A DNA stretch of 60,079 bases from assembly GCF_003236385.1 (NCBI RefSeq), contig NZ_POUA01000002.1, positions 1 through 60,079 of the forward strand, given 5' to 3'. Shown here piece by piece: positions 40,967 to 58,035 of this stretch (position 1 is its first letter; the number at the start of each line of letters is the position of its first letter). The DNA comes from Spongiactinospora gelatinilytica (GTDB taxonomy: Bacteria; Actinomycetota; Actinomycetes; Streptosporangiales; Streptosporangiaceae). The position numbers and the translations under genes are program-made. Below the pieces are notes generated by a model. The model did not search any database. It saw only the letters and a list, made by a program, of their open reading frames with translations, and had not been told where the DNA came from.

Positions 40967-40972
40967 TATCGT
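40967..40972 (+). promoter_or_regulatory. -10 hexamer of the leaderless leader ORF
   Basis: TATCGT is followed by 7 nt and then ATG 40980. This is the same TANNNT-N7-ATG layout found at thyA, the DinB gene, the ArsR gene, the LRR gene and the SMI1 gene. No clear -35 element was found upstream. Confidence 0.5.
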
Positions 40973-40979
40973 GCATGGC

Positions 40980-41033
40980 ATGTCCGGCGCTTCTGCTGCG
41001 GCTGCCGCCGCTGTGACCAGGACGCTCCGCTAG
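40980..41033 (+). CDS. 17-codon alanine-rich leader peptide upstream of the MFS exporter
   Basis: The peptide reads MSGASAAAAAAVTRTLR and its TAG stop falls in the loop of the terminator hairpin at 41022-41044. There is no ribosome site; the position of the TATCGT hexamer 7 nt before the ATG suggests a leaderless message. A ribosome that reaches the stop would cover the 5' arm of the stem and prevent the terminator; one that stalls or fails to start would leave it free. Such ribosome-dependent attenuators control antibiotic-resistance genes elsewhere. The mechanism here is inference. ATG 40975 in another frame encodes a 13-codon alternative. Confidence 0.5.
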   Translation: MSGASAAAAAAVTRTLR

Positions 41034-41050
41034 CGGCGGGGCGTTCTTCT
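41022..41050 (+). terminator. Attenuator-like terminator between leader ORF and MFS gene
   Basis: ACGCTCCGC (41022-41030) pairs with GCGGGGCGT (41036-41044), with one G-T wobble, around the loop TAGCG, which contains the leader stop codon. TTCTTCTTCC follows, giving a rare T-rich tract in this genome. About 95 nt of leader remain before the MFS start. Confidence 0.62.
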
Positions 41051-41143
41051 TCCACTTTCCACTGAACGTTCCGTCGCTTCGTGGTCAATCCGGAGCGGCC
41101 GTTTCGTGCTGCCCGGGATATCCCCGAGCAACGGAGCATTTCT

Positions 41144-42532
41144 GTGGGGTCACCCCTTCTCTTCTCTCGCCAGGGCGGTTCGTCGCCGGTGCGGGCATGG
41201 CTGGTTCTGAGCTGCCTGGCCATGTTGCAGTTCCTCATCGCGGTCGACGTGACCGTGGTCAACGTCGCGCTGCCGTCCATCGGCCACGATCTGGGCGCGG
41301 ACGCCCGCCGCCTGACATGGGTGGTCGTCGGGTACACGGTCACAGGCGGCGGCCTGCTGATGCTCGGCGGACGGCTCGGCGACCTGCTCGGCAGGCGGCG
41401 GGTACTGCTGGCGGGCACCGTCCTGTTCGGGGCGGCGTCGCTGCTGGCCGGCATCGCCCCGTCATTCACCCTCCTCGTGGCGGCGCGGCTGATGCAGGGC
41501 GCCGGTGAGGCGCTGGCGCTGCCCGCCGCCATGGCGGTGATCGTGCTCATGTTCCCCGAGGGGCCGCGCCGGTCGCGAGCGCTGGGTGTGTGGGCCGCGG
41601 TCGCGAGCAGCGGTCTGGTACTCGGCTTCGTGCTCTCCGGGGTGGTCACGCAGCTTCTGGGCTGGCGATGGATCTTCCTGGTGGCCGTTCCGTTCATCGT
41701 GTTCGTGCTGGCGGCCACGATCCTGCTGGTCCCCGCCGACCCGCTGGGCCGGCGCGTCCGGCTCGACCTGCGCGGGTCGGTGCTGCTGACCGCGGCGCCG
41801 CTGCTGTTCGCGCTGGGCGTCGTCGAGGCCGGGCAGGACGGCGGACTTGGCCGACTGTCGCCGGTGGCGCTGGCCGGGGCGGCGATCGCCGGGGTGCTGT
41901 TCGTCGTGACCGAACGCCGTGCGGCCGACCCGCTCATCCCTCCCGGATTCTTCCGCAACCGGGCCCGCGTCCTGGCCAACCTCGCGACCGCGCTGCTCAG
42001 CGCCGCCCTGTCCACCTCGTTTCTGCTGTTCACCTATCACCTGCAGAACCGGCTGGGGCTCAGCCCGCTGGCGGCCGGGCTCACCCTGCTGCCGTTGGCC
42101 GTCTCCCTCATCGCCGCCGCGACGTTCGTGCCACGGCTGCTCGGGCGGTGGGGGGCGCGCGTCTGCGCCGTCACCGGGATCGGGCTGACCGCACTGGGCA
42201 TGGCCGCCATCGCCGCCGCCCCTGCGGGGGCGCACGTTCTCGCGACGGTTTCGGCGATGGTGCTGATCGCGGCCGGGATGGGCTTCGGGCTCGTCGGCCT
42301 GCAGTACGCCGCCGTGACCGGCGTGACCGGAGACGACGCGGGGGCCGCCGCAGGCGTCCAGCGCGCGGCCGACCAACTCGGCGGTTCCACCGGGATCACG
42401 GTCTACATCGGCGTCGGTTTCGCTCCGGCCCTTGCCGGCATCGACCCGTTCCTCACGAGCAGCGCCCTTGCCATCGTGGGGCTCGCCGCCGCCGGGTTCA
42501 TCGCCTGGCGCATCGCCCTGCCCGCGCACTGA
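41144..42532 (+). CDS. MFS multidrug exporter, DHA2 (EmrB/QacA) family
   Basis: A 462-residue proton-driven drug exporter with 12-14 membrane helices. Family signatures: helix 1 motif LIAVDVTVVNVALPSIGHDL, motif A LGGRLGDLLGRRRVLLAGTV, motif B-type RLMQGAGEALALPAAMAVI and the antiporter motif C in ASSGLVLGFVLSGVVTQLLG. GTG 41144 is chosen: CGGAG lies about 8 nt upstream and the protein then matches the usual short N-terminus; GTG 41081 would add an atypical leader. It is preceded by the leader ORF and terminator, so expression is probably induced by translation stress. Substrates are unknown. Confidence 0.92.
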   Translation: MGSPLLFSRQGGSSPVRAWLVLSCLAMLQFLIAVDVTVVNVALPSIGHDLGADARRLTWVVVGYTVTGGGLLMLGGRLGDLLGRRRVLLAGTVLFGAASLLAGIAPSFTLLVAARLMQGAGEALALPAAMAVIVLMFPEGPRRSRALGVWAAVASSGLVLGFVLSGVVTQLLGWRWIFLVAVPFIVFVLAATILLVPADPLGRRVRLDLRGSVLLTAAPLLFALGVVEAGQDGGLGRLSPVALAGAAIAGVLFVVTERRAADPLIPPGFFRNRARVLANLATALLSAALSTSFLLFTYHLQNRLGLSPLAAGLTLLPLAVSLIAAATFVPRLLGRWGARVCAVTGIGLTALGMAAIAAAPAGAHVLATVSAMVLIAAGMGFGLVGLQYAAVTGVTGDDAGAAAGVQRAADQLGGSTGITVYIGVGFAPALAGIDPFLTSSALAIVGLAAAGFIAWRIALPAH

Positions 42533-57754: not shown

Positions 57755-57955
57755 GCCCCCATCAGAGGGGGCGGTGGGCGCGAGGCCGGTCTTCGGACTC
57801 CCGGATCAACGCCTGACCGCCCGCCTTCCCGGCCCTTGCGGGCCAGTGGCCGTGCTTCGCACCTGGGCGGCGACTTCCCGGTCACCGCGGCGGGCCCGTG
57901 CCGGAATCACACCGGCTTCCCGATTCTCCTCGCGATCGCGAGGCACCTCGCAACA
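57755..57955 (-). ncRNA. Cobalamin riboswitch controlling bluB
   Basis: Read on the minus strand: GGTGCC (57947-57942), then the hairpin CCTCGCGATCGCGAGG (57943-57928), then GGAAGCCGGTGTGATTCCGG (57920-57901), and finally the B12 box AGTCCGAAGACCGGCC (57799-57784). This order and these sequences are the conserved core of adenosylcobalamin riboswitches. A last hairpin, GCCCCC-TCTGAT-GGGGGC (57772-57755), lies just before the bluB ribosome site and may act as the expression platform by hiding it or by terminating transcription. Confidence 0.9.
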
Positions 57956-58035
57956 GTTCGCCGAGCAGTACCGTACCGTGGCGACCCGCACCGCTGCCCA
58001 GGGGCCCCGAGTTCGGCCCCGGAGCCCGCCTTCGG

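Follow-up and report, generated by a model that had tools for sequence, protein, structure and literature searches.

What does the short open reading frame in front of a drug exporter gene do in Spongiactinospora gelatinilytica, and how might a ribosome reading it govern the gene behind it? The window analysed here is a stretch of 60,079 nucleotides from this actinobacterium (contig NZ_POUA01000002.1, positions 1 to 60,079). The original prediction, made from its letters, held that an alanine-rich leader ORF ends in the loop of a terminator and that antibiotics acting on the ribosome switch this terminator and induce the exporter. A comparison with related leaders points to a different device, and we consider it quite likely that the leader is a ribosome-operated translation attenuator of the erm/cat type, with a leaderless arrest peptide and a relay of three hairpins.

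The exporter and the layout of its leader

The best named family for the exporter is NF000031 (LmrA, a lincomycin exporter; 473 bits, E 8e-142), and its match to the Pfam profile MFS_1 gives family membership. With 473 bits against the 850 required, it falls below the LmrA equivalog cut-off of NF000031; 'LmrA-like' is a description here and no identification as LmrA. Transcription of lmrA in Streptomyces lincolnensis is induced by clindamycin (PMC8546547).

The features of the locus are collected in Table 1. The predicted arrangement TATCGT-N7-ATG is present (TATCGT at 40967-40972, seven nucleotides, ATG at 40980), as is the 17-codon ORF, whose TAG stop at 41031-41033 lies inside the hairpin loop. 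The predicted 9-bp stem is found as well and extends to 11 bp (41020-41030 with 41036-41046), followed by TTCTTCC. The gap from stop codon to exporter, put at about 95 nt, has to be corrected, as the GTG at 41144 stands 110 nt past the uORF stop codon. The window leader is more stable than its dinucleotide shuffles (z -3.1), with 2 of 200 shuffles equally good. Elsewhere in the window, a cobalamin riboswitch was located at 57767-57965 on the reverse strand (103.6 bits).

Table 1. Features of the exporter locus, with window coordinates
Feature	Coordinates	Strand	Basis
-10 element TATCGT, extended -10 type	40967..40972	+	TAnnnT position across leaders; promoter activity presumed
Leaderless uORF MSGASAAAAAAVTRTLR then stop, predicted arrest peptide	40980..41033	+	Conserved in 79 nonredundant leaders
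S2, 5' arm of hairpin 1, uORF codons -4 to -1	41020..41030	+	H1 pairing 98.3%
S3, 3' arm of hairpin 1 (41036-41046); partner of S4 in the alternative fold (41033-41046)	41033..41046	+	
S4, pairs with S3 (41064-41077, ON) or S5 (41073-41081, hairpin 2, OFF)	41064..41081	+	
S5, pairs with S4 (OFF) or S6 (ON)	41090..41101	+	S5:S6 conservation, partner-swap
S6, pairs with S7 (hairpin 3, OFF) or S5 (ON)	41106..41117	+	
S7, 3' arm of hairpin 3 with exporter Shine-Dalgarno GGAG (41133-41136)	41123..41138	+	RNAalifold, paired cells
LmrA-like 14-TMS-type MFS drug exporter, GTG start	41144..42532	+	NF000031 best match; Pfam MFS_1

The putative promoter and the leader peptide

In 77 of 79 nonredundant leaders, the motif TAnnnT stands exactly at -13 from the uORF start, and none of the 79 has it at any other offset between -9 and -21. 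A G occupies position -15 in 95% of these leaders, and no -35 element is conserved among them. Transcription beginning at the A of the start codon would give just this -13 spacing. As judged from the alignment, this A is therefore most likely the transcription start and the uORF leaderless. The fixed spacing and the conservation in relatives speak for the predicted leaderless regulatory leader ORF.

The uORF itself and the position of its putative promoter are evident in the aligned sequences. Start, stop and length of the ORF are conserved in front of the exporter (79 leaders: ATG in 77 and GTG in two; TAG in 78 and TAA in one; 16-20 codons), and we infer that it is translated. Two parts of the ORF differ in how they vary among the 79 leaders. 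At codons 2, 5 and -8 to -4 (negative numbers being counted back from the stop), 7963 synonymous codon-pair differences face 2527 nonsynonymous ones, whereas at codons -3 to -1, inside the hairpin, 118 face 3614, and the changes there preserve RNA pairing. By these counts, selection is on the peptide outside the hairpin and on RNA pairing inside it. Ala, Ser, Cys, Gly and Thr together make up 98.8% of residues 2 to -7; Ala -8 is invariant and Ala -11 nearly so, with varying synonymous codons. The consensus peptide reads MS(G/A)AS..AA-V-T-R, and Cys is absent from many leader peptides, that of the window included.

Distribution of the leader

The original prediction had named conservation of the ORF and hairpin upstream of orthologous exporters as its own test, and such conservation was found, well beyond what chance would give. 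Among the LmrA-like exporters of named public genomes that are alignable, reach at least 55% identity, keep an intact N-terminus and have upstream DNA available, 63 of 65 are preceded by the leaderless uORF; this number comprises 62 leaders counted by script and that of locus L109. In the two exceptions, L101 and L119, the leader has decayed and lacks a stop, and the leader was found before none of ten exporter homologues below 55% identity. Its presence before nearly every close homologue makes the exporter the likely controlled gene, as predicted. At least 20 named actinobacterial genera carry it before exporters, namely Streptomyces, Nonomuraea, Actinomadura, Nocardiopsis, Saccharopolyspora, Prauserella, Brevibacterium, Yaniella, Leucobacter, Isoptericola, Cellulosimicrobium, Brachybacterium, Nocardia, Pseudonocardia, Actinokineospora, Streptoalloteichus, Sphaerimonospora, Marinitenerispora, Tamaricihabitans and Jiangella.

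Pattern and model searches gave a similar distribution. Of 299 genomes of the order, 22 match a 29-base pattern of the uORF end and none the reversed control. Of 16 matches in 296 Streptomyces genomes, 14 are genuine leaders, of which 13 are followed by an LmrA-like exporter and one by a shortened remnant (L144); the other two, L147 and L152, were judged non-leaders. At L144, the leader and ribosome-binding site (1470-1720) stand before a mere stub of the exporter gene, and this leader is a relic left after deletion of the exporter. The CM R1 search of 396 genomes of the phylum scored strongly at LmrA-like loci only, with five further matches at 21-27 bits. A second match in the window's own genome lies in a long, repetitive, coding-like stretch and was taken as chance. 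No close homologue was found on plasmids, Rfam release 15 gave no match at gathering score in the leader or in five homologous loci, and no description of the leader was found in the literature searched, which came mostly from outside subscription journals.

Variants occur within the family. At L079, L055, L080, L081, L083, L085 and L092, the stop is changed to TAA or shifted one codon later (CGC-CAC-TAG, CGC-TCC-TAG, CGC-TTC-TAG) and still lies in the hairpin loop. The predicted placement of the stop codon in this loop is kept across leaders even with different codons. S3 and S4 lie about 40 or more bases further apart in a Streptomyces subtype with the peptide MSGASGAGCAGVTR(T)(S/P)R (L073, L113, L141, L144, L146), which keeps hairpin 1 and the downstream part; at L146 the extra bases form a long additional hairpin.

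Other exporters have leaders of their own. Streptomyces exporters of the Cmx/CmrA chloramphenicol type are preceded, about 155-290 nt upstream of the exporter match, by a different conserved leaderless uORF (MSSPESDKAGAFGHAVSPLNH, or beginning MSSPESDRLRPPVRRW or MSSPEASRLRPP; L156-L159, L162, L163, L165, L166, L168, L169, L172-L174), which is probably another attenuator. In front of more distant LmrA-like exporters stands a leaderless uORF of far fewer codons, which ends in Lys and stop and is followed by (C/T)TCCAGG (MGIAVTK, (GTG)SVTK and (GTG)AVFIK; L188 on the reverse strand, 1305; L189, 1351; L004, 1279). These are possibly a second leader class sharing V-T-(R/K), and a pattern search for this short class returned mostly noise.

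Two conserved RNA folds

Conservation of folding was scored on an alignment of 44 leaders, in which both sets of helices described here are evident. The OFF fold consists of three consecutive hairpins, H1 (S2:S3), H2 (S4:S5) and H3 (S6:S7), with the uORF stop codon in the loop of H1 and the exporter Shine-Dalgarno sequence in H3; unguided, RNAalifold finds the same three. Paired cells make up 96.8% in the OFF fold and 39-47% once partners are slid, and six pairs show double changes. Three of these belong to H1 (98.3% of cells paired), in which one pair changes from C-G to U-A in ten sequences. H2 is paired in 98.0% of cells and shows no coupled changes in the 44-leader alignment. H3, with 92-98%, contains the exporter ribosome-binding site, of which only half of the GGAG lies inside the stem.

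The ON fold, S3:S4 (92.7% of cells paired) with S5:S6 (91.9%), is mutually exclusive with the OFF helices, and 92.4% of its cells are paired against 37-55% when slid. Its covariation is barely above that of column shuffles, and simple shuffle tests are inflated by relatedness among the sequences. When partners are swapped between species, native partners have an advantage for S2:S3, S3:S4, S5:S6 and S6:S7; S4:S5 is unchanged by the swap, and the control S4:S7 shows no native advantage.

A computed switch

The helix switch and the best ribosome position come from folding energies, which ignore kinetics, Rho and a coupled polymerase. In the free leader, the computed helix probabilities are.80 for H1,.59 for H2 and.42 for H3, with.11 for S3:S4 and.25 for S5:S6. 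Masking S2 raises S3:S4 to.79 and S5:S6 to.65 and lowers H2 to.10 and H3 to.14, and masking both S2 and S3 restores the OFF pattern of the free leader. The mean energy needed to open the exporter ribosome-binding site is 9.8 kcal/mol without a ribosome. It falls to about 6.2-6.8 kcal/mol with the ribosome front anywhere from stop-36 to stop-9, and to 4.8, 4.1 and 4.4 kcal/mol with the front at stop-6, stop-3 and stop+0, the minimum being at stop-3. For a ribosome at the stop codon it is about 7 kcal/mol, and the one further drop comes at stop+45, the end of the tested range, where S4 is reached. The window leader is sharper (6.6 kcal/mol free, 1.9 at stop+0 and 10.9 at stop+12). Opening is eased at the optimum front in 69-70 of 72 leaders, and when S4-S6 are shuffled (40 leaders), the dip, on average 2.2 kcal/mol, shrinks to 0.3 kcal/mol. 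Fronts from stop-6 to stop+0 place codons -7, -6 and -5 (Ala, Val, Thr), the conserved part of the peptide, in the P site. This dependence of the computed opening on the ribosome front agrees with the prediction that ribosome position is the likely signal.

On average, the four Shine-Dalgarno bases are no less paired in the ON state, because CGGAGC of the Shine-Dalgarno region can find a partner in the S4 tail (GCTTCG); the change is seen only in the opening energy of the whole ribosome-binding site. Since this base pairing does not fall, release of the ribosome-binding site is the weakest link of the model.

Proposed mechanism and alternative explanations

In the mechanism that we propose, transcription would start at the A of the uORF ATG, and by default H1, H2 and H3 would form, with H3 sequestering the exporter ribosome-binding site. 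A ribosome that stalls while codons -7 to -5 (Ala-Val-Thr) occupy its P site would cover S2 and leave S3 uncovered; S3 could then capture S4, which would free S5 to capture S6. The S5:S6 helix would weaken the structure over the ribosome-binding site and allow the exporter to be translated. A ribosome that goes on to the stop codon would cover S3 too, and the switch would remain off. Arrest is probably drug-dependent and would be sensed through the nascent peptide MS(G/A)AS..AA-V-T-R.

The main competitor is transcription attenuation as in whiB7 or lmrC, in which hairpin 1 would be the terminator that a stalled ribosome blocks, possibly with Rho in place of a U-tract. The hairpin that overlaps the uORF end is strong and G+C-rich, the terminator that controls lmrC in S. 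lincolnensis is partly overlapped by the uORF of that gene (PMC8546547), and the attenuators described so far for actinobacterial resistance genes are mostly transcriptional. The window leader is among the most T-rich of the 79 after the stem; across them, however, the eight nucleotides after the stem never contain more than four T and contain at most two in 48 of 79. A terminator scan does not flag the stem, and pairing is conserved up to the Shine-Dalgarno sequence, which a terminator would not need. The predicted intrinsic terminator is not supported by this comparison, as no U-tract is conserved and conserved pairing runs on through two further hairpins. With the U-tract not conserved and the scan negative, the terminator was dropped as the primary reading; translation attenuation probably fits better than an intrinsic terminator, and we regard the transcriptional alternative as a whole as unlikely. 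A terminator has a still smaller place in the reverse arrangement, in which S5:S6 and a pyrimidine-rich stretch would terminate transcription and stalling would lower exporter expression. S5:S6 does form a strong hairpin in many sequences (e.g. CCGGAGCGGCACGTTCGTGCTGCTCGG then AACTTCTTCT). In most, the stretch after it is no U-tract, hairpin 3 with its Shine-Dalgarno sequence is left unexplained, and turning down a resistance gene upon ribosome stalling makes little sense, so that we give this arrangement hardly any credence.

It had also been suggested that the alanine run senses Ala-tRNA charging, to which Cys could be added in Cys-rich relatives, as in biosynthetic attenuators. The conserved Ala -8 and Ala -11 with their varying codons would suit such a sensor, and leaderless poly-Cys attenuators are known in mycobacteria, as cited in PMC13236596. 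Three considerations render the suggestion very improbable: Ala swaps with Ser, Cys and Gly at several positions, and Cys is often absent; a ribosome starved for Ala would halt as early as codon 3 or 4, the first for Ala, which by the computed profile lies too far upstream for the ribosome-binding site to open; and the controlled gene is a drug exporter, which does not belong to the pathway of the repeated amino acid. Finally, the leader always stands before this exporter family or its remnant, and it is thus inherited with the exporter; it could be conserved only by recent common descent, without a regulatory function. Exporter identities down to about 57-65%, compensatory changes, peptide variation dominated by synonymous changes, an unvarying distance to the -10 element and a stop that remains in the loop although codons differ leave next to no room for this.

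Candidate inducers and significance

As to the inducer, our first guess is an amphenicol-type drug, as suggested by a peptide made up of Ala, Ser and Cys only. Arrest by chloramphenicol and linezolid is best with a penultimate Ala, followed by Ser or Thr (PMC8987054), a preference that fits the near-exclusive Ala/Ser/Cys peptide with Ala -7 behind Val -6. Against this guess, earlier Ala contexts (codon 5) should already cause arrest, the Streptomyces subtype MSGASGAGCAGVTR has Gly at -7, and Cmx-type chloramphenicol exporters have a different leader. A macrolide may act instead, through the conserved N-terminus (Ser2, Ser5), and lincosamides or streptogramins may be alternatives. Lincosamides, streptogramins A and pleuromutilins arrest ribosomes at the start codons of other actinobacterial uORFs (PMC12421871), and by our model start-codon arrest would open the exporter ribosome-binding site only partly.

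More tentatively, these leaders could form an undescribed, widespread class of leaderless arrest peptides, MS(G/A)AS(A/S/C)n-A-A-V-T-R, whose Ala/Ser/Cys repeats directly read the -1 preference of an amphenicol-type inhibitor and whose relay controls exporter translation across actinobacteria. If the attenuator model is right, at least 20 genera of actinobacteria would contain a ready-made antibiotic sensor, and the codon at which the ribosome must stop is sharply predicted. Structural biology would gain a leaderless arrest peptide, the rules by which drugs depend on the penultimate residue could be tested on a natural example, and actinomycete hosts could be given a portable translational switch. 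The model would also explain how an exporter family that moves between genera carries its own control.

Comparison with known systems

The leaders of cat, cmlA and fexA are led by a Shine-Dalgarno sequence and usually have one hairpin. The uORF described here differs in being leaderless by prediction, in having its stop in the first of three hairpins, in the relay and in an unrelated peptide. In common with these chloramphenicol-inducible attenuators, it would combine a short leader ORF, arrest and exposure of a ribosome-binding site, and in fexA too the gene under control is a 14-TMS-type MFS exporter (PMC5418344). The multi-hairpin attenuators of the ermC type share the arrest peptide, the exclusive hairpins and a ribosome-binding site released by stalling (PMC5418344, PMC4191407). 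They belong to another gene family and host phylum and have another peptide, whereas the start here is predicted to be leaderless and the classic R/K-x-R/K macrolide motif is lacking, the window peptide ending in R-T-L-R.

Closer in phylogeny are the attenuators of lmrC, ARE5 ABCF genes and whiB7/wblC, which likewise place actinobacterial antibiotic resistance under uORF control (PMC8546547, PMC12421871, PMC13236596). In lmrC, uORF2 overlaps a hairpin as well (PMC8546547), and the ARE5 leader peptides are much shorter (MLV, MRS, MVGDDDISG; PMC12421871). The lmrC, ABCF and whiB7 systems are, however, transcriptional and work through a terminator, a device that is unsupported here. The leaderless poly-Cys uORFs of mycobacteria, as far as they are cited in PMC13236596, are likewise short and rich in one or two residues; they sense cysteine and control cysteine genes, whereas Cys is dispensable in the leaders of the LmrA-like exporters.
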